Shown here one piece after another: positions 16,633 through 31,205 of a stretch of DNA of 64,000 bases. The notes beneath the pieces were generated by a model that saw nothing but the letters and a program-made list of their open reading frames with translations, was not told where the DNA came from and did no database searches. A program made the position numbers and the translations under genes. The stretch's first letter is position 1. Every line of letters begins with the position of its first letter. Source of the DNA: Acidobacteriota bacterium. GTDB taxonomy: Bacteria; Acidobacteriota; Terriglobia; Bryobacterales; Bryobacteraceae. The stretch is taken from contig JAFKEE010000029.1 of assembly GCA_017307505.1 (NCBI GenBank), forward strand, positions 1 to 64,000, in the 5' to 3' direction.

Positions 16633-17547
16633 TTATCCCCGGACACTCTCCAGCACCTGGCCGGTTGCCAGCCAGTGAGCGCATTCGGGGCCGAGTTCGG
16701 CCAGCGCCCGTGCTTCATACTCCGCCGATTCGGCCTCGGTGAGCGTATCGCGCCAGCGCCCGTTGGTGCCCTTATTGATGAAAGTCTTCGCGCCACCGAC
16801 CCAGGCGGCACCTCCCATGGGCACGACCTTTTCGCCGTGCTCCTTCATCCAGTCGAAGGTGCAGTGCTCCACGATGGTGTCCCACTTGCTTTCGTCGATG
16901 GGGATGTCCAGAAACGCAGCGATACGCCGCATCTCTTCAGGCATGTGCTTCTTGAGGACGTCGAAGTGCACCAGGAGAAGGTTCGGGAGATGACGGATAG
17001 CCCACCAGCTGCGGACATTCTCCCACAACGACCAATACGGGAATCCATCGCGATCCAGCCAGTCGCGCCAGTAGACACGGATGTCGTCCGGCGGCGGCCC
17101 CAGGGGCGGTCCGACCAAGCCCGGGCTCTTGTTCAGCGCATCGTACATGATCTCGTTGCCGTTACGGTGGTGGTTGTAGAGGCTCCACAAGACATCGCGG
17201 CCATCGCGGCCGATGTAGATGTATTTGGCCTTGGGAGAGTAGACAAGGGCTTCCACGGGAAGGTGAGTTTTCACGAACCGCCGGTGGGTCTGTTCTTCCA
17301 GGGCGGGCAGCTTTATCTCCTTGGGCGGAACGCGGAAGTCCACCCAGGGCGAGATCGACTGGGTGTCACGCTCCGTGTCGCCGCCGAAGAGCATCTGCGA
17401 AACAATCTGCTGCATCCAGGTTGTGCCGGACTTCGCGTAGGTGGAGATGATGATGTCGTCATCCCTGAATTTAAAGTCGTTCCAGACCGTGGAATCGATG
17501 TGCTGGTTGTGCATCTCCCTGGTCTTCTGAGGCCATGCAATTTGCAT
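16633..17547 (-). CDS. PAPS-dependent sulfotransferase
   Basis: 304 residues, cytosolic. The 5'-phosphosulfate loop YAKSGTTWMQQIV begins at residue 37, and the 3'-phosphate site appears as YIYIGRDGRDVLWSLYNH, the two PAPS-binding motifs of the Sulfotransfer_1 family. A catalytic His candidate is in FVKTHLPVEAL. The C-terminal WVGGAKTFINKGTNGRWRD matches the family's RKGxxGDW region. It moves sulfate from PAPS to a hydroxyl or amine acceptor (steroid, phenol or sugar-like); the acceptor is unknown. PAPS can come from the CysDNC genes at 25.8-29.1 kb. A strong AGGGGAG ribosome site lies 9 bases before the ATG. Confidence 0.9.
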   Translation of the reverse strand: MQIAWPQKTREMHNQHIDSTVWNDFKFRDDDIIISTYAKSGTTWMQQIVSQMLFGGDTERDTQSISPWVDFRVPPKEIKLPALEEQTHRRFVKTHLPVEALVYSPKAKYIYIGRDGRDVLWSLYNHHRNGNEIMYDALNKSPGLVGPPLGPPPDDIRVYWRDWLDRDGFPYWSLWENVRSWWAIRHLPNLLLVHFDVLKKHMPEEMRRIAAFLDIPIDESKWDTIVEHCTFDWMKEHGEKVVPMGGAAWVGGAKTFINKGTNGRWRDTLTEAESAEYEARALAELGPECAHWLATGQVLESVRG

Positions 17548-17611
17548 TGAAGTCGTCTCCCCTCTTTGCGGAAGCGGTTGTCCCAGCCGCCCCGACCCAG
17601 TAATCCCTAGA

Positions 17612-17680
17612 CCCGGGTTCGCCCGGGACTCGAAGAGTGGAATTAATTAGAGCACCGTTGGCCTCGACTCGCAAGTCGAG
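17612..17680 (-). terminator. Two strong hairpins downstream of the MBL hydrolase gene
   Basis: CTCGACT (17663-17669) pairs with AGTCGAG (17674-17680), and CCCGGG (17612-17617) pairs with CCCGGG (17622-17627). They lie 75-145 bases beyond the stop of the MBL hydrolase and before the sulfotransferase start. No T-tract, so termination is likely but not certain. Confidence 0.45.
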
Positions 17681-17754
17681 CTAGCAAGAATCAGCAGAAG
17701 GACAGGTTGTTGCCCCGAATGGGCGTGGTGGAGCGGAACGGCCTCGGCTTCCGG

Positions 17755-18678
17755 TTAGTAAACCGTCAGGTCCTGACCATTGACGACGATCCCGTGATAG
17801 GTCCGGCGGATCTCTTTGACGAGATCCACTTCCTGCTGAGGGCCGAAGTAGAGCTGATGGTAGAGCACGAGCAGCTTTGGTTTGGACTTCGCCGCAAGTT
17901 CCGCCAACTGCTTCGTGGAGGTGTGGAAGTTCGCGTGGTACCGGCCGCGCCGCTGGCCGAAGACCAGGTCGAAACGGTCTGCAGAATAGACCTCATGGAC
18001 CAGAACATCGCATTGCCGGCAGGCTTCGGCAATGCTCTCACTTAGCGCCGTATCCCCGGAGATCACGATGGAACGCCCTCCGGCTTCAATGGCGTAGCCA
18101 AACGCCTGGGGCCACGAGCCGTGCGGCACGGCCAGCGCGCGCACCGAGATGTTCTCGTCCTTGTAGACAGGACCCGCGCCTTCGATCTCATGGACGACGG
18201 GCTCAAGGGTGCGCTTGTTCAGCCCCTCAAAGCCTTCTGTCCTGACCTGGATGTCGGCCCCATAGGCTTCCATCAGATGGGAGGTCATGGCCGCGATGCC
18301 TTTGGGACCGAACACCTGCAGCGGCTGGCGCCGTCCCACCACCCAGGGCGTAAGGAGCAAATCCGGATAGCCCAGAGTGTGATCGGAGTGTAAATGAGTG
18401 AAGAAGACGTGGGTGAGGTTGGTAGCGTCGAGGGCCTCAATACCGAATTTCCCGGAAGCGGCCTGGGCCCGGCGGACCACTCCGGGTCCGGCGTCGAACA
18501 GATAGCTGTGCCCGTTGACCACTACAGCGACACAGGGGCCTGAGCTCGAAGGGTCCGGGATGGGGGTTCCGGTGCCCAGGAGGACCACTTTCGCTGGTTC
18601 GGCGGCGCCGGCGGAGGTTCCGGCACCAAGGAACCCGGCAAACAGTACCAGAAGACTCGTGGGTTTGGGTAGCGGCAT
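17755..18678 (-). CDS. Exported MBL-fold hydrolase (AtsA/RNase Z-like)
   Basis: 307 residues with a signal peptide (LLVLFAGFLGAGTSAGAA). The metallo-beta-lactamase metal motifs are clear: VVLLGTGTPIPDPSSSGPC, LFDAGPGV, then FFTHLHSDHTLGY (HxHxDH), VISGDTALSES (metal Asp) and LVLYHQLYF (final His). The LGTGTP start and overall order match the RNase Z/alkylsulfatase-like AtsA branch, and export excludes a tRNA-processing job. Sulfate-ester hydrolysis is therefore a reasonable but unproven guess, supported by the sulfotransferase and arylsulfotransferase-like genes nearby. Its start is 44 bp from the divergent MFS gene. Confidence 0.8.
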   Translation of the reverse strand: MPLPKPTSLLVLFAGFLGAGTSAGAAEPAKVVLLGTGTPIPDPSSSGPCVAVVVNGHSYLFDAGPGVVRRAQAASGKFGIEALDATNLTHVFFTHLHSDHTLGYPDLLLTPWVVGRRQPLQVFGPKGIAAMTSHLMEAYGADIQVRTEGFEGLNKRTLEPVVHEIEGAGPVYKDENISVRALAVPHGSWPQAFGYAIEAGGRSIVISGDTALSESIAEACRQCDVLVHEVYSADRFDLVFGQRRGRYHANFHTSTKQLAELAAKSKPKLLVLYHQLYFGPQQEVDLVKEIRRTYHGIVVNGQDLTVY

Positions 18679-18721
18679 GAATCAAACCATTTCGATCGGC
18701 GTTCCGGCCGGAGGGTGTATT

Positions 18722-20251
18722 ATGGCCCAATCCTTACTCCTCTGGGAAGTAGATTACCGAAAGGGGCCAGCCTTGAAGTCTCCGCCGTCGCCACCCGTGC
18801 CATCCACCCCCGCGGGCCAGCAGGTCCGCCCACCCGAAACACCGGATCCGGGGCGATGGAGAGCGCTGGCCGTGGTGCTGGCCGCGGCCTTCCTTGTCGG
18901 CCTCGACTTCTTCGTCGTGAACGTGTCCATCCCGTCGATCCGGACCACTCTGCACGCGACGTTCGCTGAAGTCCAACTGGTGATTGCGAGCTATGGCCTG
19001 ACGTACGGGGTGTTACTGATCTCGGGGGGACGGCTGGGCGACATCTACGGCCGAAAGCGGATGTTTATCTGGGGCGTGGTGGCGTTCACTCTGGCGTCGC
19101 TGCTTTGCGGCCTCGCGCCGACGCCTCTCTTCCTCATCGCCGCGCGGGCCGTACAGGGCATCTCCGGCGCGATGCTGTTCCCTCAGGTTCTCTCGATCAT
19201 GCAGATCACTTTTCCGCAGAGCGAACGAGCCAAGGCGTTCGGCCTGTTTGGGACTGTGATCGGCACGTCGTCGTTTTCAGGCAATGTGCTGGGCGGGCTG
19301 CTGGTGAGTGCGGACTTCTTCGGGCTGAGCTGGCGGCCTATCTTCCTTATCAATCTTCCGATCGGACTTCTGACGGTGCTCGCGGCCATGAAGTTTCTGA
19401 AGGAGTCGCGCTCGCCAAAGGCCCGCCGGCTCGACCTGGTGGGTGTCGCCCTGATGACACTTGCGCTGACGATGCTGCTCTATCCCCTGATTCAGGGGCG
19501 GGAAGCCGGTTGGCCTGTATGGGCCTTTGTCTGCCTGGCGGCATTCCTGCCCGTCATGGCGATCTTCGTCAAGTACGAGCAATGGGTGACGAATCGGGGT
19601 GGTTCGCCTCTGGTGGAACTGGCCCTCTTCCACGACCCGGCATTCGTCATCGGCCTGTTCAGCGGGGTTTGCTTCTTCAGCGGAGCCGCGGCCTTCTTCC
19701 TGATTTTCACGATCTTCCTGCAGAACGGAATCGGCTACTCCCCGCGAGAGGCCGGGCTGACTCTAGCCTGGTTCGCCATCGCTTTCCTGGGGAGTTCCCT
19801 GGCCTCGATGCGAGTGCAGCCCCACATCGGCAGCAGGATCATCAATCTGGGTGCTGCCCTCATGATGACCGGGCTCTCCCTGCTGCTAATGCGCACAGCG
19901 GCCAGTGGTGCCGCGCTATCTGGCCTCGACCTGGGGCCGATCCTCCTGCTGTATGGCACTGGGCAAGGCTTCGTCATGCCAACGCTCATCAGTACGATTC
20001 TGATCAACATCAAAGGGCACGACGCCGGCTCGGCCTCCGGCGTTCTCAGCACCGTGCAGCAAGTTTCGTTCGCCACTGGTGTGGCGGTCATCGGGACCGT
20101 GTTCTTTAGCGCGCTGGGCAGCTCGACATCGGTGGAGGCCTTCATTCATTCCCTGCGAGTGGCCTTCACCGTGAACATTTCGCTGCTGTCCGTGACTTTC
20201 CTGCTGATGTTCAGGATCCCTCGCTTCCCGGCGCGGGAGGTCCACCATTAG
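18722..20251 (+). CDS. MFS exporter, DHA2 (EmrB-like, 14-helix) family
   Basis: 509 residues. After a Pro-rich cytosolic N-terminus of about 50 residues come some 14 membrane segments. Motif A appears as GGRLGDIYGRKRMF, the first helix as VGLDFFVVNVSIPSI (the D-x-x-V-V-N-V-A-L-P type of DHA2), and motif C-like glycine-rich stretches follow (GTVIGTSSFSGNVLGGLL). Expected: proton-driven export of drugs or hydrophobic metabolites. The GGAGGG at 18710-18715, six bases before ATG 18722, fixes the start; the frame stays open further upstream but overlaps the divergent MBL gene. A role in exporting sulfated products is only positional inference. Confidence 0.88.
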   Translation: MAQSLLLWEVDYRKGPALKSPPSPPVPSTPAGQQVRPPETPDPGRWRALAVVLAAAFLVGLDFFVVNVSIPSIRTTLHATFAEVQLVIASYGLTYGVLLISGGRLGDIYGRKRMFIWGVVAFTLASLLCGLAPTPLFLIAARAVQGISGAMLFPQVLSIMQITFPQSERAKAFGLFGTVIGTSSFSGNVLGGLLVSADFFGLSWRPIFLINLPIGLLTVLAAMKFLKESRSPKARRLDLVGVALMTLALTMLLYPLIQGREAGWPVWAFVCLAAFLPVMAIFVKYEQWVTNRGGSPLVELALFHDPAFVIGLFSGVCFFSGAAAFFLIFTIFLQNGIGYSPREAGLTLAWFAIAFLGSSLASMRVQPHIGSRIINLGAALMMTGLSLLLMRTAASGAALSGLDLGPILLLYGTGQGFVMPTLISTILINIKGHDAGSASGVLSTVQQVSFATGVAVIGTVFFSALGSSTSVEAFIHSLRVAFTVNISLLSVTFLLMFRIPRFPAREVHH

Positions 20252-20284
20252 CCAGCCAATGGAGCCCGGTGCGCCGGGATCCGG

Positions 20285-22138
20285 CTAGCGGGCCGGCGGA
20301 GTGTAAAGGTCTGCGACTCTGTTGCTCCGGTAGATCATGGCTCCGGTGGTCTCCAGGGCGAAAACCACCTTACCCTGGGGGGTCACTTCCAGCGATTGTC
20401 CGGCAAATGAGATGCCCTGCAGCAGGGAACCGGTGGTGAAGTGGAAGTTCCCATTGCTGAGGCGTTGCGCCGAGCCAACCCAGGGCGCATACACCCCAAG
20501 ATCGGTGTTCATGACCAGGGTTGCCGTCCGAGCCTTCTCGTCGATTTTCCAATACTGGCCGCGGGTGTGGGCAGTGGGGTCCTTCTTCTTGCGCCGCTGG
20601 CCGTTGTCGAGCAGCAGCAGCGTGTCGGAGTTCGGGGGCTCGAACCCGGCGTCGTGCTGATAGGAGAACCAGGGCGCCTTTTCGCCGGTATCCACCTTCA
20701 AGTCTCCGTCTTCGCCTAACCGCCAGAGCACCTTGCCCGAGCCCTTGCCGTCCTGGTAGTCGATCTTAGCCACCCAGTCCTGCTCCGGCATGGACAGCAC
20801 CAGATTGCCGTCCTGGCGGCTGTAAGCGAGCGCATTGCCGTGCAGCCAGTCGTTTGCGACGGGCGCGAGGAATACCGGGGCGCATCCACCTCCGCCCACG
20901 GGGCCGCGGCATTTGTCGTCGCCGCGCGCGGCCCTGGAGACATCGAGATGGTCCAAGGCGTTCCACATCCATCTCACCTGCAGGTCCTCATCGAGGTCGA
21001 GGATGAGCACTGAGACGACATCGATGGGGTCCTCGGAACCCTGGGCGCCGTCGGGCATCATGCGTTCCAGACTGGCGATGGCAATGGTATGGCCGTTGGG
21101 AAGGCGAATCGCATCGTGATGGAAGCCCGGGACGCACTGCTGCCCGTTGGGTTTGCAGACGGAGTGGATGCCACGCTGTTCCAACTGGTCGGCCACGCTC
21201 GCGATGTTTGTTTCGCGGATTGTGTTGCCCACCAGGTCCACTTCGGAGAGGACCTGCGTGCGGCTGTTTTCCTCATTGATGCCGCCGCTAAAGACCAGAA
21301 AGCGTCCGCCGGGGAGCATGCGAGTGAGAGAGCGGTCGCTGAGTGGCAGGTACCACACCAGGTTGCCGTTGAGATCTGTGGCAATGGGCCGCTGGACAGG
21401 CAGTTCGATGCTGTAGACCAGAAAGGGCTCGGTCGAGGAGGCGGCGGAGTCGCGCGGCGTCACCACTTTGAGCGGTGCGTAGTTCCCGTCGGCGATGCCC
21501 GTGTGGAAGGTAACAGGGGGTCCGGGCCGGGCGGAATCGCCGGTCAGCACCTCGGCGCGCATCTGGTAGGTGGTGTCGGCGAGCATCCCGGCGACGTAGA
21601 TATTGCTGCTGCGAGTTCCGGAACAGGGCTGGCTGCCGGTATGCTGATCCTTCCCTGCCTCGCCTTCCCGATGGAAGGCCACCCGGAAGCGGCTACCTTC
21701 CGGACAGGCTGGAGCGCTGAACAAGGCAACGAGCGGATTGGCGGTCGGTGTCGCCACTGGCGTCTGCCCGGAGGCTCGCGCCAGAACGCGAAATGGAAGT
21801 TCGGCTTCAGCCGTCAGCTTCGAGGTGACGTTTTTCATCGTCACTTTCACACGGGCCTCATGTTCGTACAGTTCGGGGCGCCAGGCAAAACTCTGCTGGG
21901 GGCTGTAATCCCTAACCACCCGGAAGGCGGCCCCATCCACGCTCACGCTGTAGCGAAAGCGGTATTTCCCCATCAGCTTGAGCGGTTCGCCTTCCTCCCT
22001 GGGCATTGCCGTGAGCCCGATGACGGTTCCGACTTTTTGAGGAGACGGCAGACTCGACACGAGACCAACTGCCGGGGCGCTCCAGCAGACGGGAAACGAG
22101 GCAACGACGGTAAGGGCGAACAGCACGGGCGTTTTCAT
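20285..22138 (-). CDS. Arylsulfotransferase (ASST)-like exported protein, copy 1
   Basis: 617 residues with a signal peptide (FALTVVASFPVCWSA). Residues 20-240 are an Ig/fibronectin-like N-terminal region (YRFRYSVSVDGAAFRVVRDY). The rest is a propeller with the ASST pattern: GFHHDAIRLPNGHT (His340-His341), WLHGNALAYS (His433-x-Asn435), MPEQDWVAKID and SYQHDAGFEPP (His495), matching by order the active-site histidines of PAPS-independent aryl-sulfate sulfotransferases. That family moves sulfate between phenols in the periplasm. It pairs with a second copy at 23039 on the other side of the TauE/SafE gene. Start 22138 gives the signal peptide. Activity is plausible but unproven. Confidence 0.8.
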   Translation of the reverse strand: MKTPVLFALTVVASFPVCWSAPAVGLVSSLPSPQKVGTVIGLTAMPREEGEPLKLMGKYRFRYSVSVDGAAFRVVRDYSPQQSFAWRPELYEHEARVKVTMKNVTSKLTAEAELPFRVLARASGQTPVATPTANPLVALFSAPACPEGSRFRVAFHREGEAGKDQHTGSQPCSGTRSSNIYVAGMLADTTYQMRAEVLTGDSARPGPPVTFHTGIADGNYAPLKVVTPRDSAASSTEPFLVYSIELPVQRPIATDLNGNLVWYLPLSDRSLTRMLPGGRFLVFSGGINEENSRTQVLSEVDLVGNTIRETNIASVADQLEQRGIHSVCKPNGQQCVPGFHHDAIRLPNGHTIAIASLERMMPDGAQGSEDPIDVVSVLILDLDEDLQVRWMWNALDHLDVSRAARGDDKCRGPVGGGGCAPVFLAPVANDWLHGNALAYSRQDGNLVLSMPEQDWVAKIDYQDGKGSGKVLWRLGEDGDLKVDTGEKAPWFSYQHDAGFEPPNSDTLLLLDNGQRRKKKDPTAHTRGQYWKIDEKARTATLVMNTDLGVYAPWVGSAQRLSNGNFHFTTGSLLQGISFAGQSLEVTPQGKVVFALETTGAMIYRSNRVADLYTPPAR

Positions 22139-22239
22139 ACTTGGTAGATCAGTATGACATGCACCTGGCGCGGCCATGCCCGATTTGCTGTTATTATGTT
22201 CCGACCGCCTGACCGGGGGGCCAGGATCACAAGAAGTCG

Positions 22240-22986
22240 ATGGAATTCCTACTGGGCTTTCTGATTGCGGCCGCCGTCGGGTTGACGGGGGTCGGCGCGG
22301 GCAGCATTACGGCACCCGTCCTGATCCTGTTCTTCAACGTCACGCCAGCGCTGGCTGTCGGCACAGCCCTCAGCTTCGCCGCGGCCATTAAATTTGCCGT
22401 GCTGCCGGTGTACCTGAAGCGGCGGCAAGTGAACTATCGCATCCTGCGCCTGCTGTGCGCGGGCGGGGTTCCCGGCGTGCTCTTCGGGTTTTACGTCATG
22501 GACAACCTGGATGCCAGCCACTACCAGCGAGTGATCTTCGGGATGCTGGGTATCACGATCATGGCTGTATCGCTGGCCAACCTGTTCCGGGCCATCCGGA
22601 ACCGGACCCCGATCAGCGGGACCGATCATGCGCGATGGCTGCCTCCGATCGCCGCGCTGATTGGCGGCGAAGTGGGATTCTCTTCCGCTGGAGCCGGGGC
22701 GATGGGTGCGGTGGCCCTGTTGAACCTGACGAGTCTGACACCGGCCCAAGTGGTCGGCACGGACATGGTGTTCGGACTTGTGATTTCGATCCTCGGGGGA
22801 GGGCTTCATCTGAACGCCGGCCATTTCAATTCATCCATACTGATGAAGCTGGTCGCCGGCGGCATCCTCGGCGCGATCAGTGGTGCAGCGCTTTCTTCGG
22901 TGGTACCCCCGCGGCCGCTGCGATTGGCCCTTTGCGTCTGGCTGGCGATCCTTGGATTGCAGTTGTGTTGGAAAGCTCTCCTGTAG
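22240..22986 (+). CDS. TauE/SafE-family membrane transporter
   Basis: 248 residues with about eight membrane helices in two repeats, each opening with the family's glycine-rich motif (AAAVGLTGVGAGSITAPVLI near residue 10, and IGGEVGFSSAGAGAMGAVAL in the second half). TauE/SafE proteins export sulfite, sulfoacetate or related organosulfur anions. It sits between two divergently arranged ASST-like genes and upstream of cysDNC, so sulfur-anion transport is a reasonable inference. It ends 52 bases before the second ASST gene on the same strand. Confidence 0.88.
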   Translation: MEFLLGFLIAAAVGLTGVGAGSITAPVLILFFNVTPALAVGTALSFAAAIKFAVLPVYLKRRQVNYRILRLLCAGGVPGVLFGFYVMDNLDASHYQRVIFGMLGITIMAVSLANLFRAIRNRTPISGTDHARWLPPIAALIGGEVGFSSAGAGAMGAVALLNLTSLTPAQVVGTDMVFGLVISILGGGLHLNAGHFNSSILMKLVAGGILGAISGAALSSVVPPRPLRLALCVWLAILGLQLCWKALL

Positions 22987-23024
22987 GCTTTCATATATAT
23001 CTTTCCAGAATGTCTTGTGTATGG

Positions 23025-23030
23025 CATACT
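23025..23030 (+). promoter_or_regulatory. -10-like box before ASST copy 2
   Basis: CATACT ends 8 bases before the ATG at 23039. A CATACT also ends 12 bases before the start of ASST copy 1, on the minus strand. Together with the short spacing this suggests near-leaderless transcripts for both paralogues. Confidence 0.4.
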
Positions 23031-23038
23031 ACAGGGCC

Positions 23039-24880
23039 ATGCGGGACATTCTGGGTCGACTGTTCGCTTTCTCTCTGTTGGCAGGCAGTGTTGCCGCGGC
23101 ACCATTGGCCGTACATCTGCACGCAACGTTGCCCTCGCCTCAACCCGTGGGCGTTTCCATCGGTTTGACGCCGCGAGTCGATAACGCGGTCGGGCTGCAC
23201 ACCTACCGCTATTCCGTCAGCGTCAACGGTGGACCGTTCCGGGTGGTGCGGGACTTCAGCCAGGACAAGGAATTTGTCTGGAGCCCGGAGCTATACGAAC
23301 ACGATGCAGCCATCCACCTGATTGCCCGCAACAACAAGACCAAGGAAGTGGCAGAGGATGAACTGCGGTTCCGCATCGTGCCCAGGGCGACCGCAAAGGG
23401 CCCGGTGGTGACCCCGACGGCCCACCCGCTGGTGGCGCTGTTCAGCGCTCCACCCTGTCCGGAAGGTAGCCAGTTCCACGTCTCCTTCCAGGCAGTAGGC
23501 GAGCAGACACTGGCTCGCACCCCCGACCAGCCCTGTGGAGGGACCCTGAGCAGCAACGTTTATGTAGCAGGGATGCGCGCCGCCACGGATTACCGGCTGC
23601 GGGCGGAGGTGGTGACTGGCGGGACAACAAAACCGGGCACCTGGCTGCCGTACCAGACCGGCATACTCGACGGCGACTTCTCGCCGGTTTCCGTCGCGGT
23701 GCCCCGTGCGGGCGGCAAACCGGCCACCGAACCGGTGCTGGTCTTCAGCGCCGCGTCGGTCGCCTCCGGGCGGCGGCCATTTGCAGTCGACCTGGAAGGC
23801 CGGATCATCTGGTACATGCGGTCAGCCGACTTCCTGACCCGGATTGTTCCCGGGGGCCGCTTCCTGGCCCTGGCGGAGGGACAGAACTCCGTCAACTCGA
23901 TGCGCCGATTGCAGGTGCTGCGCGAAACAGACCTCGCCGGAAACGTCATTCGTGAGACGAACATTGGACGGGTCGCCGAACAGCTGGAACTTCGTGGGAT
24001 TCACTCCGACTGTCAAAAAGGCGGCAAGGAGTGCGTGCCCGGCTTCCATCACGAAGCCATCCGGCTGCCGAACGGGCACACCCTGGCAATTGCCGGACTC
24101 GAACGGATCATGCCGGCAGGGACCCAGGGTTCGAAGGAGCCCGTCAATGTCCTCGGTGACATCGTGGTAGACCTCGACCAGGACTTCCAGGTGACCGGCG
24201 TTTGGAACACGTTCGATCATTTCGACGTAAAGCGGGCGTCGGTGTATGACGCCAAGTGCAAGGAAGGCCGTGGAAGCGGGGGCTGCCCGCCCATCTTCCT
24301 CACCGCCGAGGCAAATGGATGGACCCACAGCAATTCGCTCAACTATATCGCCTCGACCGGGGACTTCCTGATCTCCATGCCCGAACAGAACTGGGTCCTC
24401 AAGGTCGACTGGAAGAACGGAAAAGGCAGTGGCAAGGTCCTCTGGCGGCTGGGCAAGGACGGCGATTTCACAGCGAAGTCGGACGATCCCAGCCCCTGGT
24501 TCTCCTACCAGCACGACGCGGGCTTTGAACCGGCGGGCTCGAACATCCTGACGATTCTGGACGATGGCCACGTCCGCTACGAGCACGACAAGAACGCCCA
24601 CAATCGGGGCCAGGCGTGGCGGCTCGACGAGGAAAAGCTGACAGCGACGCCCATCCTGAACGCGGATCTCGGCGTTTACGCCATCGCGGTGGGCTCGGCG
24701 CAGACCCTGAAGAATGGCGGATACAGCTTTGAGGCCGGCTTCATCAATCCCGCTTCCCCCTATGGACGCACCGTCGAGACGGATGCCGACGGCAAGGTAG
24801 TTTACGCGGTCGACGTGGAGGGGATTGTTGTGTACCGCAGCTACCGGGTCAGCGATATGTACTCGGCGCCGATCAAGTAG
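23039..24880 (+). CDS. Arylsulfotransferase (ASST)-like exported protein, copy 2
   Basis: 613 residues, clearly paralogous to the gene at 20285-22138 over its whole length: signal peptide (LFAFSLLAGSVAAAP), Ig-like N-terminal region (YRYSVSVNGGPFRVVRDF), then the propeller with GFHHEAIRLPNGHT (His337-His338), WTHSNSLNYI (His430-x-Asn432), MPEQNWVLKVD and SYQHDAGFEP (His492). The histidines align with those of copy 1, so both copies look intact. An ATG at 23021 would add six residues; 23039 is kept because it begins the signal peptide. It is followed after 11 bases by the PHP gene, so they are probably cotranscribed. Acceptor and donor are unknown. Confidence 0.8.
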   Translation: MRDILGRLFAFSLLAGSVAAAPLAVHLHATLPSPQPVGVSIGLTPRVDNAVGLHTYRYSVSVNGGPFRVVRDFSQDKEFVWSPELYEHDAAIHLIARNNKTKEVAEDELRFRIVPRATAKGPVVTPTAHPLVALFSAPPCPEGSQFHVSFQAVGEQTLARTPDQPCGGTLSSNVYVAGMRAATDYRLRAEVVTGGTTKPGTWLPYQTGILDGDFSPVSVAVPRAGGKPATEPVLVFSAASVASGRRPFAVDLEGRIIWYMRSADFLTRIVPGGRFLALAEGQNSVNSMRRLQVLRETDLAGNVIRETNIGRVAEQLELRGIHSDCQKGGKECVPGFHHEAIRLPNGHTLAIAGLERIMPAGTQGSKEPVNVLGDIVVDLDQDFQVTGVWNTFDHFDVKRASVYDAKCKEGRGSGGCPPIFLTAEANGWTHSNSLNYIASTGDFLISMPEQNWVLKVDWKNGKGSGKVLWRLGKDGDFTAKSDDPSPWFSYQHDAGFEPAGSNILTILDDGHVRYEHDKNAHNRGQAWRLDEEKLTATPILNADLGVYAIAVGSAQTLKNGGYSFEAGFINPASPYGRTVETDADGKVVYAVDVEGIVVYRSYRVSDMYSAPIK

Positions 24881-24891
24881 AAGGACGTTCA

Positions 24892-25767
24892 GTGATCGAC
24901 CTACACACCCATACGGATCGCTCAGATGGATCGACCGCACCCGAAGACCTGGTTCGGCAGGCGATGGCTGAGGGACTGCAGGCCCTGGGCATCGCGGACC
25001 ACGACACGCTCGCCGGCTATGAGGCGGCGCTGCCATTCGCCGCGGATTGCGGGCTGGAACTAATCTGTGCCGTCGAGCTGAGCACGCGTCCCAGTGAAGT
25101 CCGCGAGCCGGGTAAAAGGGAGCGTTCCGTTCACGTGTTGGGCTACTGGCTGACGGAGCCGCCCACGGCGGAGTTCCGGTGCTGGCTGGAGACGCAACAG
25201 AGCAGCCGCCGCCGGCGCAATGCCGATCTGATACTGAAGCTGCAGCAACTGGGTGTTTCCATCAGGATCGAAGAGGCAGAGGTCTATGGGCGCAACCAGG
25301 TGGGGCGTCCCCACATTGCCCGCGTGTTGTGCGACAAAGGCTACGTTTCGACAATTCAACAGGCCTTCGACGTCTACCTGGCCGACGACGCGCAGGCGGC
25401 CGTGGAGCGGGATGAGCCGACCCTGGAAGAGGGAATCCGGCTGATTCAGGAATCGGGGGGCATGTCGTCGCTGGCCCACCCGGTGAGGCTGCCCCAGAGG
25501 GGCTCCGAACTGGTGAGACTTGTGGAGCGTCTGGCCGACGCCGGATTGCAGGGGATTGAGGTCTTTCACAGCGAGCACTCGGCGGCCGATTGTGCGGAGT
25601 ATGCGGAGCTTGCCAGGCGATTCGATCTGATCCCGACGGGGGGGTCGGATTTCCATGGGGAGAATAAGCCAGGTATCCGGCTGGGCCAGGGCATCAATGG
25701 AAACGCCTGCCTTCCCTATGGTTTCCTGGAACAGATGCGGGAGTTGTGCACGGTGAAGCGCCTCTGA
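24892..25767 (+). CDS. PHP-domain phosphoesterase (YciV/RNase AM-like)
   Basis: 291 residues, cytosolic. The PHP metal motifs are complete: MIDLHTHTDRSDG (HxH), IADHDT, CAVELST (metal Glu), AHPVR and GGSDFHG with the final D-x-H. The order and length match the YciV/TrpH group, which hydrolyses short nucleic acids and 3',5'-phosphates; some of these hydrolyse pAp, the by-product of PAPS-dependent sulfotransfer. That makes it a natural partner of the PAPS genes just downstream, an inference from position and family. It starts at GTG with AAGGA upstream, 11 bases after the ASST stop. Confidence 0.83.
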   Translation: MIDLHTHTDRSDGSTAPEDLVRQAMAEGLQALGIADHDTLAGYEAALPFAADCGLELICAVELSTRPSEVREPGKRERSVHVLGYWLTEPPTAEFRCWLETQQSSRRRRNADLILKLQQLGVSIRIEEAEVYGRNQVGRPHIARVLCDKGYVSTIQQAFDVYLADDAQAAVERDEPTLEEGIRLIQESGGMSSLAHPVRLPQRGSELVRLVERLADAGLQGIEVFHSEHSAADCAEYAELARRFDLIPTGGSDFHGENKPGIRLGQGINGNACLPYGFLEQMRELCTVKRL

Positions 25768-25847
25768 ATGAGCCGGCATCCGGTTTCAACATTCGAGGTT
25801 GATAGTGCACGCGCGGGGTGGTGACTGATGGATTTCGAGGGAGCAGA

Positions 25848-26768
25848 ATGACAGGCAGTACGACGGCAGGCTTGACGCTTACGCACCTGCGGATGCTGGA
25901 AGCGGAGAGCATCCACATACTCCGTGAGGTAGCGGCGGAGTTCCAGCGGCCTGTCATGCTCTACTCCATCGGCAAGGACTCGTCGGTGATGGTGCGCCTG
26001 GCGCAGAAGGCCTTCCATCCGGGCAAGATTCCCTTCCCTCTGCTGCACGTGGACACGACTTACAAGTTTCGGGAGATGATCGAGTTTCGCGATCGCTTCT
26101 GCGCCGACATCGGGGCGCGGCTCATTGTTCACACGAACAGGGCGGCCGTCGACGCCGGAGCTAATCCCTTCGATCTCGGAACGCAGAAGTGCTGCGGGCT
26201 GCTCAAAACCCGGGCGCTGCTGGACGCCTTGGCCGAGGGCGATTTCGATGCGGCGATCGGCGGCGCCCGCCGGGACGAGGAGAAATCGCGAGCCAAGGAG
26301 CGGGTCTACTCGTTTCGGGATTCGCACGGGCAGTGGGATCCCAAGAACCAGCGACCGGAGCTATGGAATCTCTTCAACTCGCGTTTGAACCCCGGTGAGA
26401 GCATCCGCGTCTTCCCGTTATCCAATTGGACCGAGTTGGATGTCTGGCAGTACATCCATCTGGAGAACATCCCGATTGTGCCGCTCTATTTCGCCAAGGA
26501 GCGCGAGATGATCGTGCGGGGTTCCTCCCTGATTCCCGTCGAAGTCGATATTCCGTTGCGGCCGGGCGAAAGGAAGGAACGCGTGATGTGCCGCATGCGC
26601 TCACTCGGCTGCAGCCCGTGTACCGGCGCCATCTACTCGGAGGCAGACACGTTGCCGAAGATCATCGAAGAGATGATCCTGGTGCGGCGTTCCGAGCGAG
26701 AGAACCGGGTGATCGATTTCGACCAGGAAGGCTCCATGGAGCTGAAGAAGCGGGAAGGGTATTTCTAA
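25848..26768 (+). CDS. cysD: Sulfate adenylyltransferase subunit 2
   Basis: 306 residues, the usual length. The PP-loop is [10 protein letters not shown] (residues 39-48), followed by [38 protein letters not shown] and the C-terminal [15 protein letters not shown]. CysD makes adenosine 5'-phosphosulfate from ATP and sulfate with the GTPase CysN. ATG 25848 has GGGAG upstream; an earlier in-frame start at 25818 adds only non-conserved residues. The stop is one base before the GTG of cysN, so the two are translationally linked. No PAPS reductase (cysH) lies in the window, so PAPS may be meant for sulfotransfer here. Confidence 0.96.
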
Positions 26769-26769
26769 C

Positions 26770-28485
26770 GTGACGTCTCCCTCGGAAGCCCAAACCGGCA
26801 TTGAGCAGTTCCTGCGCCGGGAAGAAGAGAAAGATCTGCTGCGGTTCATCACCGCAGGCAGCGTGGACGACGGCAAATCCACTTTGATCGGCCGGCTGCT
26901 TTACGATTCCAAAGGCGTCTACGAAGATCAGATCACCTCGATCCGCAAAGCGACGGTGAATGAGACGGCGGGCGCGCTGGACTTCGCTCTGCTGACGGAC
27001 GGCCTGCGGGCCGAGCGCGAGCAGGGGATTACGATCGACGTGGCTTACCGCTATTTCGCAACCCCGAAACGCAAGTTCATCATCGCCGACACCCCGGGTC
27101 ATGAGCAGTACACGCGGAACATGGCTACCGGCGCTTCCACGGCGAACCTGGCTATCGTCCTTATCGATGCGCGCAACGGTGTGCTGCCGCAATCGCGACG
27201 CCACGCGTTCATCGCCTCGCTGCTTGGAATCCACCACGTTGTGGTGGCCGTGAACAAGATGGACCTGATGGATTACAGCGAGCAGGTCTTCAACCGGATC
27301 CGCGCCGAATTCAGTTCCTTTGCCGCGCAGCTCAATATTCCCGACCTTTACTTCATTCCGGTGAGCGCGCTGCTGGGCGACAACATCGTCACAAAGAGCG
27401 ACCGCATGCCGTGGTTTGAGGGCGCCAGCCTGCTGCACCATCTGGAGACCGTGCACATTGCCAGCGACCGGAATCTCTCTGAGATGCGCTTCCCGGTGCA
27501 GCTTGTGGTGCGGCCGAACCAGCAGTTCCGCGGTTATGCGGGCCAGGTCGCATCCGGAGTGCTGAGGCCGGGCGATCCCGTGATGGTGCTGCCTTCCGGG
27601 CGGACTTCCCGGGTGAAGTCGATTGTGACGTACGACGGAGAGGTCACTCGTGCGTTTCCCCCGATGTCGGTGACTGTGGCGCTGGAGGATGAAGTGGATG
27701 TGAGCCGCGGCAATATGCTGGCTCCGCCGTCACATCCGCCCCATGTGACGCGCTGCATCGACGCCCGACTGGTCTGGATGGGTGATCAACCGCTCGATCT
27801 ACGCCGGCAGTACCTGATCAAACACACGACACAAACGGTGAAAGCCCAGGTCCGTTTCATCCGGTACCGGGTGAATGTGAATACGCTCGAGAAGCTGCCG
27901 GCGCCGGAGCTGAGGCTCAACGAAATCGGCACCGTTGTGATCGACACCCACGCGCCACTCTTCGTGGACCAGTACCGCCGGAATCGGGCCACGGGCAGTT
28001 TTGTCCTGGTGGATCCCGTTTCCAACGCCACCGTCGCCGCGGGCATGGTTACGGGGCGCGACCCGAGAGTCGCGGATCCGACCATGCCGGAGTCACAGCC
28101 TGCGACGGAAGGACGAATTCCGGAAGCCGAGCGCCAGCAGCGCGTTGGACACGCATCTGCTCTGATCTGGATGAATGGGGGCGCCCATATCGGTTTCGCC
28201 GTGGAGAGCGAACTGTTCCAGAGGGGCTACCTTACGCATGTGATCGCGGCCCAGACGGACGGAAGCGTTCTACTGGAGCTTGCGCACAATCTCACGGCGG
28301 CCGGGCTGATTACTATCTGCGCTGCCGATTTCCTGTTTGAAGTGGAGCGTGAGCGGGCCGGGGCGTTGACTGAGCCTGAGCGGTTCTTGGAGGTCAACGC
28401 ATCGGCGTTCACGAGTCCGGAGGAAGCGGCGCAGGCGATCGTGAGGGAACTGGAAGCGAGAGGCATCACTCCTCGGAAGGTGTGA
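26770..28485 (+). CDS. cysN: Sulfate adenylyltransferase subunit 1 fused to a degenerate APS-kinase domain
   Basis: 571 residues; plain CysN proteins are about 430-475. The GTPase part is complete: GSVDDGKST (30-38), [13 protein letters not shown], then the two beta-barrel domains. From about residue 455 the tail aligns by eye with APS kinase: [24 protein letters not shown] and [15 protein letters not shown] correspond to the start, helix and ISPY regions of CysC. The P-loop is gone: GLSGSGKST is replaced by residues 470-478 (Gly-Gly-Ala-His-Ile-Gly-Phe-Ala-Val), and the DGDxxR motif is missing. It cannot be a working kinase and an intact cysC follows. The domain may be structural or sense APS/PAPS. 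GTG start, one base after cysD. Confidence 0.92.
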
Positions 28486-28517
28486 AGGACGGGGCAGAAT
28501 AGGACTAGGGGCGCAGT

Positions 28518-29090
28518 ATGCAAACAGGCTGTACATTATGGTTCACCGGAATGTCGGGCAGCGGCAAGAGCACGCTCTCCAATATGCTCAGCGACCGCCT
28601 GCGCGCGATGGGGGCGCGGGTGGAGGTGCTCGACGGCGATGTGATCCGGACTCAGTTATGCCGCGGCCTCACATTCAGCAAGCAGGACCGCGAGGAGAAT
28701 ATCCGGCGCATCGGTTTTGTCTGCGAACTGCTTACGCGCAATGGAGTGATTGCGATTGCCGCCGCGATTTCGCCCTATCGCGAAGGCAGGGATGAGCTGA
28801 GGGCGAGAATCGCCAACTTCGTGGAGATTCACATGGATTGTCCGGTGGACGTCCTGGTGGAACGCGACGTGAAGGGATTGTACAAGAAAGCCCTGGCGGG
28901 GGAGATCAAACATTTCACCGGGATCTCGGATCCGTATGAGCCGCCACTCGCGCCCGAGGTGATCATCGATTCGTCGAGGCAGACTCCGGAGGAAGGGGTA
29001 GCGGCGATCCTGAGCTGCCTGGAGGGGCTCGGCATCATCTCTTCTCCTTTCGAGATGACGCCGGAGTCGGGGGAATCACGCCAGAGTTGA
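28518..29090 (+). CDS. cysC: Adenylylsulfate (APS) kinase
   Basis: 190 residues, normal length. Walker A is GMSGSGKST (residues 11-19), followed by the substrate motif LDGDVIRTQLCRGLTFSKQD, ENIRRIGFV, AAISPYREGRD, and KGLYKKALAGEIKHFTGIDPYE-like sequence before PEVIIDS, all typical of CysC. It makes PAPS, the donor for the sulfotransferase at 16.6 kb. It lies 32 bases after cysN with AGGGGCG upstream, in one operon with cysD and cysN. It is the working kinase of the cluster, in contrast to the degenerate copy at the end of CysN. Confidence 0.95.
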   Translation: MQTGCTLWFTGMSGSGKSTLSNMLSDRLRAMGARVEVLDGDVIRTQLCRGLTFSKQDREENIRRIGFVCELLTRNGVIAIAAAISPYREGRDELRARIANFVEIHMDCPVDVLVERDVKGLYKKALAGEIKHFTGISDPYEPPLAPEVIIDSSRQTPEEGVAAILSCLEGLGIISSPFEMTPESGESRQS

Positions 29091-29139
29091 GGACTCGCCG
29101 GTTGCGCACGCTGCGGGGCGCCAGGCCGTAACCGGATCG

Positions 29140-30132
29140 TCAGTTCCTGGAAGCCGGGACCGGCTCACCGGCGCGAAGGCCTTCCGATTGGTCAGAGCGC
29201 GCGAGTTCCTCTCGCGCCACCGGTTTGACCTCGGTGCGCCAGAGATAGGGGGACACACGTTGTGTGCCCAGGACAGCCCCGGCCGCCTCGCCCATGCCCC
29301 ACGCCCAGGCAAGCGGTACGGTCGCAGCCAAGGATGCCAGGCTGACGCCGGACGATTTCCCCGCGCGCCGGAAGTTGATGCAGGCCCGTTTCCAATGAAG
29401 GAAGGCAATCGCCGGAGCCGCGAGAGGATACAGCAACCGCAGAGGCAGCGCCCATTGCCTGGTCCGCACTGCCCCGAAGCCAAGTCCGACGATGGCGAGC
29501 AGCAGGAATTCGTAAGCGCAGCCCGGCGGGTCGAAATGGCGCATCCGGGCCCTCTCTTCCAGGTAGAAGCGCCCGCCCTGCCGGCGCAGATGCCGGACCA
29601 GGAACGCGCCCATCAACATGTCGCCGGCGAGTGCGGAACCGCGCTGATGCAGCAGTTCGGTGCGGATCACAACGTTCCACCCACAGAGGACGCCGGTTGG
29701 GCCGCCTTTGACAGGCATCATCCATTCCCCGTAGCCGATCAGGAAGGACCCTTCCGCCCAGCAGGTGGTACGGTTGCCGGGCCGCAGTGCGGGACCGACG
29801 GCGTCCCATCCTTCCTCAAGGCGTTCGAGAATCATCTGTGTCCACTCCGGGTCAGGCAGGCAGTGATCCTCGGCGAGCATGACATAGGCGCTGGAGGCAA
29901 ACCCGATCCCGATAGCCCGCGCCTCGTGCAGATCCGCCGTCCCCACATCGACAATCACCAATCCAGGCGAGAGTGTAGCCGCCTGCACAGCGGAGGGACC
30001 CAGGTTGGCCGGACAGAGAACCAGGATCTCCAGAGCATCCCGGCAAGTCTGAGCCTCCCATGTATCCAGTGCAGCCAGAATCGTGTCGAAGCCCTTCATG
30101 GCGGGCAGCAGAATGGAAAGCCGGGGTTTCAT
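29140..30132 (-). CDS. Family-2-like glycosyltransferase
   Basis: 330 residues. The N-terminus has a GT2/GT-A start (LSILLPAMKGFDTILAALDTW), a strand ending in EILVLCPANLG, then VMLAEDHCLPDPEWTQMIL in place of the DxD region, and the later GGPTGVLCGWNVVIRTE. A hydrophobic pair near residues 215-260 suggests membrane association. It is likely to add a sugar to a surface glycan; donor and acceptor are unknown. Its ATG overlaps the stop of the GT8 gene by four bases (ATGA), so translation is coupled and the pair probably works on the same glycan. Confidence 0.75.
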   Translation of the reverse strand: MKPRLSILLPAMKGFDTILAALDTWEAQTCRDALEILVLCPANLGPSAVQAATLSPGLVIVDVGTADLHEARAIGIGFASSAYVMLAEDHCLPDPEWTQMILERLEEGWDAVGPALRPGNRTTCWAEGSFLIGYGEWMMPVKGGPTGVLCGWNVVIRTELLHQRGSALAGDMLMGAFLVRHLRRQGGRFYLEERARMRHFDPPGCAYEFLLLAIVGLGFGAVRTRQWALPLRLLYPLAAPAIAFLHWKRACINFRRAGKSSGVSLASLAATVPLAWAWGMGEAAGAVLGTQRVSPYLWRTEVKPVAREELARSDQSEGLRAGEPVPASRN

Positions 30133-31070
30133 AGAAATCTGTGCTTCCACAAGTATTGCTCCAGTGGATAGAGCAAGGCACGCAGGTGCCGGTCGTAGAT
30201 ACTGGTGAACCGGTCGCGGAGATGCGACGGTTCACGGGCGATGAGAGGGCGGGCGCCGGCCAGCGCTGCCTGGTAGGGAGCGTTGAAAGGTCCGGCGATG
30301 GGCGCCCGCCAGGGCTTCATGCGTCCGGCGAAGTGGACGATACCCGGCCGCTTCCATTCATCGCCGCCCTGCCTGTCAAATGGCCGGCCGGCGCGGCTCG
30401 CCAGAAGATTCCAGCATTGATCGAGATGTTTCCAGTCGTCCCACAGGACGGCATTCAAAGCTTCCTGGTGCAGGAAGTCTATGGGCTCGCGAGTGTACTC
30501 AAAATAGCGCAGGGCACGCTGCGTTACAGCGCGTTCCCGCCAGCGGCCGAGATGGATGAGGAGCACTCCGCAATTAAAGTAGGGTGTGTCCCGCTGGATG
30601 CCGAGCGCCCGCCAGTCTTTCACGCCGCGCGGACTGGAACACAGCGGGACGGCAGCATCGGCCGCGGCCGCCAATACATGCCCCTCCAGGGGCGTTGCCC
30701 AGAGCTCCGCGATATCGCCCAGCACCAGCATGTCGGCATCGAGAAACAGGACCCGCTCCAGACTGGAGGGCAGGACTTCGGGCAAGAGCAGCGGCGAAGA
30801 AGCCTCGGGGGGATAGTGGCGCACTCGCGGAGCTTTCGCCAGCAACCCTGGAGTCAGGAGAATCGAATGAGTTTTGAGGATCGAGGAGATGACACCCAGG
30901 GTGGCATCCGGAATTCCGGAGTGAACCAGATAGAGCTCACAGGCTGCACCGTGCCGGAGATGCTGCTTCAGGGAACTCAGCATCACCACGAGAGGTGTTA
31001 CATAGTGGCGGTTGACGGCGCAGACGATGGGTATGACCGGACTTGGATCCTGCGCCGCTGGCACGCACAT
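30129..31070 (-). CDS. Family-8 glycosyltransferase
   Basis: 313 residues. The GT8 signature is clear: IPIVCAVNRHYVTPLVVMLSSL at the N-terminus (donor-binding strand), the metal DxD in LFLDADMLVLGDI, TPYFNCGVLLIHLGRWRE, HQEALNAVLWDDW and a final HFAGRMKPW. These enzymes add galactose or glucose to lipopolysaccharide or glycogen-like acceptors. ATG 31070 puts the first strand close to the N-terminus; a TTG at 31124 would add 18 residues with no clear support. It is overlapped by the GT2-like gene by four bases and ends the pair's coupling there. Confidence 0.83.
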   Translation of the reverse strand: MCVPAAQDPSPVIPIVCAVNRHYVTPLVVMLSSLKQHLRHGAACELYLVHSGIPDATLGVISSILKTHSILLTPGLLAKAPRVRHYPPEASSPLLLPEVLPSSLERVLFLDADMLVLGDIAELWATPLEGHVLAAAADAAVPLCSSPRGVKDWRALGIQRDTPYFNCGVLLIHLGRWRERAVTQRALRYFEYTREPIDFLHQEALNAVLWDDWKHLDQCWNLLASRAGRPFDRQGGDEWKRPGIVHFAGRMKPWRAPIAGPFNAPYQAALAGARPLIAREPSHLRDRFTSIYDRHLRALLYPLEQYLWKHRFL

Positions 31071-31205
31071 ATCAGCGCACGCTCCGAAATACCATACCGT
31101 GTTCGCGACTCCATTTCCCCTCAATCATAAAGTAATTCGGCAAATGAACGGAAACGGTGATAAGGAAACGCCGCCTGCCAAATGACGCGGAGAAAAATCA
31201 AGGGG

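Follow-up and report, generated by a model that had tools for sequence, protein, structure and literature searches.

Dead APS-kinase domains on an ATP sulfurylase are already known from fungi, where the domain serves regulation in Penicillium and is a structural remnant in yeast. According to two papers (PMC3734648, PMC3779200), the allosteric domain of the fungal enzyme binds PAPS, and the yeast domain is said in the second of them to have no defined function. Another kind of fusion occurs in the two-domain APS kinases of T. denitrificans and Entamoeba, where, according to PMC13213808 and to a work cited in PMC4373884, the kinase is functional and the sulfurylase half is not. No description of a pseudo-APS-kinase fused to CysN, either short or full-length, was found in the available parts of the open-licence PMC literature, and the CysN-fused form is apparently undescribed.

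The locus studied here is located in a window of 64,000 nucleotides, this being the whole stretch of DNA analyzed, from a soil bacterium with a genome of 9.39 Mb in 75 contigs. The named relatives of the window CysN are Acidobacteriota of the Bryobacterales/Solibacter group (L013–L015, L025). The genes cysD, cysN and cysC follow one another head to tail on the plus strand (Table 1), with cysN running from a GTG at 26770 to a stop codon at 28483–28485, and cysC starting with the ATG at 28518, 32 bases past that stop. Residues 1–430 of CysN constitute an ordinary CysN (TIGR02034, 596.8 bits versus a cut-off of 336.1), and the 141 residues past this core comprise a variable linker followed by a domain of some 120 residues. 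The original prediction of an intact cysC 32 bases downstream was confirmed, as the protein displays intact GMSGSGKST and DGDVIR motifs and scores above the cut-off of NF002059 (261 versus 244 bits). Concerning annotation, the window CysN passes the model for bifunctional CysN/CysC (NF004035, PRK05506) by 1.3 bits (716.3 versus a cut-off of 715), with a match that covers residues 5–493 only. Since the kinase part is dead as judged below, the automatic name "bifunctional" may mislead, and it is likely that CysN proteins of this kind are annotated as bifunctional sulfurylase/kinase even though their kinase is dead.

Table 1. Window coordinates of the cysDNC genes, of the parts of CysN and of related genes.
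Feature	Position	Strand	Basis or remark
cysD, ATP sulfurylase catalytic subunit	25848..26768	+	TIGR02039, 458.8 bits; ends 1 base before cysN
cysN, 571 aa, with C-terminal pseudo-APS-kinase tail	26770..28485	+	ORF; TIGR02034 and NF004035 matches
CysN GTPase/EF-Tu-like core, residues 1–430	26770..28059	+	Pfam GTP_EFTU, GTP-eEF1A_C; TIGR02034 over residues 24–427
Variable linker, residues 431–450	28060..28119	+	60% aa identity to same-genus genome G005 (core 97%)
Pseudo-APS-kinase domain, residues 451–571	28120..28482	+	hhalign, AF2 model, Foldseek, VIA
ERQQRVGH helix, residues 454–461	28129..28152	+	E, R, R, H invariant or ≥90% conserved in 55 short tails
Strand 1 and lost P-loop site, residues 464–475	28159..28194	+	Alignment with kinases, site table
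LFQRG of helix 1, residues 482–486	28213..28227	+	LFDRG in relatives; short-tail alignment, motif counts
Former DGD site (AAQ) and deletion of ~18 residues removing the arginines matching Mtb R483/R497	28246..28260	+	Alignment, site table
Lid-deletion junction (~45 alignment columns), after residue 546	28405..28410	+	Alignment
Intact cysC	28518..29090	+	Profile matches; sole PF01583 match of the genome
PHP-domain gene	24892..25767	+	Best NCBIfam model 3′,5′-nucleoside bisphosphate phosphatase, 175.6 bits, below the cut-off of 400
Sulfotransfer_1 gene	16633..17547	-	Profile search; sole PF00685 match of the genome

The relationship of the C-terminal stretch of CysN to CysC, which had been proposed from the sequence, was borne out by a profile-profile match and by the predicted fold. 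When scanned alone, the window tail stayed below the cut-offs of TIGR00455 (E 1.1e-4, 21.9 bits, cut-off 138.7) and Pfam APS_kinase (E 0.044, 14.3 bits, cut-off 21.1), and phmmer with this single tail against the PDB found no APS kinase. A profile built from 55 short tails and free of full-length kinases matched 11 standalone CysC (hhalign probability 97, E 1.2e-10), and its best seven matches in the PDB were all APS kinases (E 0.0008–0.006). The structure prediction advised with the original prediction was run on CysN residues 431–571 with AF2, fed with an alignment that contained full-length kinases; the model (pLDDT 89.3, pTM 0.80) recovered the APS-kinase fold, with Z 17.0 and an rmsd of 1.5 Å over 121 residues to 3uie_A, an Arabidopsis APS kinase. 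The top 46 rows of a Foldseek search with the model were APS kinases or APS-kinase fusions. The values for ATP sulfurylases were Z 12.0 for that of P. chrysogenum (1i2d, rmsd 2.5 over 113 residues) and Z 10.6 for that of yeast (1j70, rmsd 2.6 over 106 residues), while PSTK, an unrelated kinase, gave 10.7. In model numbering, the predicted elements are a helix (22–29), a strand (34–39), a helix (42–54), a strand (59–62), a helix (68–80), a strand (84–89), a helix (94–103), a strand (109–112) and a helix (120–133). As judged from sequence and model, the tail is an APS-kinase domain by descent, which arrived as a CysN-CysC fusion and then lost catalysis.

Two other origins were considered. A chance open frame past a lost stop codon was ruled out by the match of the tail profile to CysC. 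A recent copy of the adjoining cysC was also discarded, as the tail is family-wide and its type of helix 1, LFDxG (LFQRG in the window), is absent from all 39 standalone CysC.

The predicted disappearance of the P-loop and of the DGDxxR motif was verified in the alignment with kinases: where strand 1 passes into helix 1, the window tail has NGGAHIG, a stretch devoid of Lys, Ser and Thr and five columns shorter, and at the DGD site it reads AAQ followed by a gap. Beyond what the original prediction noted, the window tail lacks, relative to the kinases, not only the 5 columns at the P-loop but also about 18 after the DGD and about 45 over the lid. The 18 or so deleted residues carried the two phosphosulfate-binding arginines. 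In M. tuberculosis CysC, according to PMC4373884, APS is held by R483, F492, R497 and K562, and the dimer interface is formed chiefly by helices 2 and 3. By motif-based mapping, the equivalents of those four residues fall into gaps in 19 to 21 of the 21 short tails mapped, that of the window included; as the short tail retains helix 3 and not helix 2 in this mapping, kinase-type dimerization may be weakened. So far as sequence and model can tell, the kinase domain of the window CysN is dead, and its tail is trimmed to a four-stranded mini-domain with neither an ATP pocket nor an APS/PAPS pocket.

Selection on the tail was estimated by comparison with a genome of the same genus (G005). The dN/dS ratios were 0.015 for the CysN core, 0.024 for cysD, 0.050 for cysC, 0.060 for the PHP gene and 0.084 for tail residues 451–571, or 0.058 for residues 451–535; in the last 36 residues, with 54% identity, the synonymous sites were saturated. 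Of the other pairs, 12 gave a usable dS; in these the omega of the tail was 0.05–0.30 and above that of the core in 10 of them, the values being rough since many dS were >1; a thirteenth pair was saturated. The dN/dS values indicate that the tail is under constraint, weaker than that of the core. Despite the missing active site, polar positions are conserved in the 55 short tails, namely E24, R25, R28, H31, E49 and R50 in alignment numbering, and the window tail is without the arginine and the aspartate of the LER.LFD motif. A separate observation concerns the extreme C terminus, where G-x-G-I ends 59 of 73 short-tailed CysN of the host family and several tailless ones (loci L097, L123–L181 and L242–L274 surveyed), and is lost in the window copy. 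As its codons vary, it looks conserved at the protein level; that it merely provides a coupled downstream gene with a ribosome-binding site is less likely, as, besides the codon variation, many loci have no start codon directly behind.

The search for the same fusion in related genomes, suggested in advance, found a short tail in 74 of 94 CysN loci of the host family. These loci are the CysN matches at E ≤ 1e-100 in 90 of 121 host-family genomes, all of them read and counted by hand: 74 short tails of at least 95 aa (window included), 2 irregular tails (L150, L243), 3 active fusions, 13 tailless loci and 2 unreadable ones (L248, L267). The share was 55 of 59 among the loci nearest the tailed query, and 33 further rows (E ≤ 1e-100) lowered it to the figure given. 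The tail lengths in the family range from 103 to 157 aa. Among named genomes, the best 80 of 283 loci drawn with the window CysN included 21 short, 25 full-length pseudo and 5 active tails, 27 loci without kinase tail and 2 CysH-fused, and 29 phylum-wide loci drawn with a full-length pseudo query included 10 full-length pseudo, 10 short and 8 active tails and 1 locus without; both draws depend on the query and are not frequencies. Some other architectures were seen along the way. CysN with a CysH-like instead of a CysC C-terminal tail occurs in marine Gammaproteobacteria (L084, L086). Four loci of the same class or family (L226, L250, L253, L263) carry an active fused CysC, 51–59% identical to the standalone CysC of the window, perhaps a second, later fusion. 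Finally, APS_kinase matches (E 1e-29 to 1e-35) lie inside open frames of 982–1000 aa in five genomes (G066, G067, G099, G115, G142).

Full-length pseudo-kinase tails related to the short ones occur in several phyla. They were defined as tails of at least 160 aa that do not fit a regular expression combining P-loop and DGD, which gave 36 cases, 35 after removal of L150 (unreadable end), of which 34 are readable, L042 being outside the reading pattern. The P-loop lysine and both arginines are kept in 22 of 23 aligned tails of this class, and the serine following the lysine is Asn in 15. DGD occurs in none of the 34 readable tails, which is partly a matter of definition, as the class was delimited through failure of the pattern, and the arginine after it is kept in all 34. 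A separate CysC-like ORF was present in the fetched flank of 6 of 10 Acidobacteriota loci with such a tail. Since both arginines are kept, the idea of a PAPS sensor is better suited to these proteins, and on their sequences they seem better candidates for a fungal-like PAPS control than the short tail.

The history of the short tails was traced on trees built with CysN cores, tail excluded, of 169 and 74 rows. The short tails formed one large group of Acidobacteriota and a separate group of Gammaproteobacteria, plus Motiliproteus (L045), and the gammaproteobacterial group adjoins full-length pseudo tails (L063, L081). A single clade of 37 short rows was rejected (AU p 1.2e-7), so that, on these core sequences, the tail was shortened at least twice. 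The APS-kinase fold was also predicted for one of the short tails of Gammaproteobacteria (pLDDT 86.5), whose model matches 3uie_A with Z 13.9 and an rmsd of 2.1 over 110. The LFDxG signature of helix 1 links the short tails with the pseudo-kinase class: 55 of 86 short tails and 23 of 35 full-length pseudo tails have it, against 1 of 10 active fused kinases and 0 of 39 standalone CysC.

Concerning the genomic context, the only CysC and the only Sulfotransfer_1 gene of the genome are both within the window, which also encodes two ASST-type arylsulfotransferases and a TauE family transporter. A possible sulfation region can be delimited at 16633–31124, with Sulfotransfer_1, two ASST, TauE, PHP, cysDNC and two glycosyltransferase genes, where the product of the PHP gene possibly disposes of the sulfation by-product PAP. 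A second cysD-cysN pair is found on contig 57 of the same genome (L123, 7542–10585), followed by cysH and a TauE-type gene; its CysN tail is of 49 aa only, and its CysH bears CC and CxxC, presumably the mark of Fe-S APS reductases. As the only CysC and Sulfotransfer_1 accompany one pair and cysH the other, the window CysDN copy probably serves sulfation and the contig-57 copy cysteine synthesis.

The occurrence of APS kinase in the relatives was recorded by PF01583 search, which found it in 89 of 121 host-family genomes (12 of the 32 without a match being identified by subtraction) and in 11 of 14 controls. Out of 73 host-family genomes with a short-tailed CysN, 18 gave no match and 3 gave weak partial ones (E 4.4e-7 to 3.4e-5, 25–32 bits, above the Pfam cut-off and covering part of the model). 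Of these 18, 14 have a completeness of at least 95%, including one in a single contig with 100% (G130). As no PAPS-making enzyme was seen by this search in these 18 genomes, or only weakly in three more, a general PAPS-sensing role of the tail is unlikely.

The reading that we prefer is that the tail is kept as a structural or assembly part of CysDN, to which a probability of about 0.45 can be assigned. The APS-kinase domain joined CysN through a CysN-CysC fusion, and the fused kinase lost catalysis and was later cut down to a mini-domain in this lineage. This mini-domain may aid the folding or the stability of CysDN, or help CysDN units to join into larger complexes; its mode of action would resemble that of the truncated yeast domain and not that of the PAPS sensor of filamentous fungi, while PAPS for sulfation would be made by the separate downstream CysC. 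A structural role is ranked first because the tail has lost its pockets but is still under constraint, because polar positions on its surface are conserved, and because there is a precedent in yeast, whose APS-kinase-like domain is reportedly needed for oligomer formation and not for activity (Lalor 2003). The keeping of the remnant by related bacteria and the renewed origin of the short form in Gammaproteobacteria also speak for a structural part of the enzyme. Against it, 13 of the 94 host-family loci are tailless, including the second CysN of the same genome, 3 carry an active fused kinase, and yeast ATP sulfurylase resembles the predicted fold no more closely than PSTK does. Further points against it are the faster evolution of the tail than of the core in most pairs, the low identity of its last 36 residues to G005, the motif residues lost in the window copy, the possibly weakened dimerization and the statement in PMC3779200 on the yeast domain.

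Some of these facts would fit as well a slowly eroding relic with little or no function, kept simply because its loss is not favored, which seems to us rather unlikely. The variable length of the tail, the tailless loci, its evolution faster than that of the core in 10 of 12 pairs, the repeated origin of short forms and the loss of host-family motifs in the window copy are what such a relic would display; however, the dN/dS ratios, even if rough, are far below 1 in the 12 pairs and between window and G005, the polar positions are conserved across 55 tails and an open tail of at least 95 aa persists in 74 of 94 loci. The tail could also be a docking site, in which the pseudo-kinase would pair with the separate CysC in the way kinase subunits do and pass APS directly to it. 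The proximity of cysC in the window and its position beside cysN in G005, the CysC-like ORF in the flanks of the full-length pseudo loci, and a cluster that looks devoted to sulfation are consistent with docking, as is the median tail length of 144 aa in genomes with APS kinase versus 122 aa in those without (p 0.005, uncorrected). Nevertheless, this length difference was gone under kinship correction (5 independent pairs, median p 1), G005 was the only one among 60 host-family loci with CysC in the fetched flank, and 18 of the 73 tailed genomes lack an APS-kinase match, with 3 more weak; docking is to be considered distinctly improbable.

As for the suggestion that the tail is a bacterial equivalent of the fungal feedback domain, its architectural half stood: there is a dead APS kinase on a separate ATP sulfurylase family and, as CysN is an EF-Tu-like GTPase of a family other than the fungal one, the similar architecture was reached separately. 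The functional half did not fare equally well. A sensor of PAPS (or APS) as in filamentous fungi would agree with the same domain being in the same place on an ATP sulfurylase, with the structural match to the P. chrysogenum enzyme and with a window cluster that would make PAPS; against this, the APS-contacting residues are deleted in the short tails, and 18 of 73 tailed genomes gave no APS-kinase match, most of these 18 being nearly complete. On these grounds, PAPS feedback by the short tail was rejected as the leading idea, and it is the least credible of the explanations considered, with very little probability left to it.

A broader proposal, which we regard as rather doubtful, is that a multi-phylum, undescribed group of CysN-fused pseudo-APS-kinases exists, in which the full-length forms would be PAPS/APS sensors on CysDN, convergent with those of fungi, whereas in Terriglobia and in Methylococcales-like Gammaproteobacteria the pocket would have been stripped independently, leaving the remnant as an assembly module, like the Penicillium and yeast states. 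If confirmed, the two fungal-like states would appear on the unrelated bacterial ATP sulfurylase CysDN in several phyla, and active fusion, full-length pseudo-kinase and trimmed mini-domain would form a natural series for testing how an enzyme turns into a regulator and then into a scaffold.

Compared to the known systems, the window CysN shares with yeast ATP sulfurylase a truncated C-terminal APS-kinase-like domain, with the difference that the yeast domain sits on a homohexameric Sat-type enzyme and the window tail on the GTPase subunit CysN. With the allosteric enzyme of P. chrysogenum it shares a dead C-terminal APS kinase; the fungal domain binds PAPS, while the short tail of the window has no pocket for it, and the full-length pseudo tails are the closer parallel. 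The domain order is the same as in M. tuberculosis CysNC, whose kinase is reported to be active, whereas that of the window is dead by sequence. The enzymes of T. denitrificans and Entamoeba are also half-dead fusions of sulfurylase and kinase, in which the dead half is the sulfurylase.
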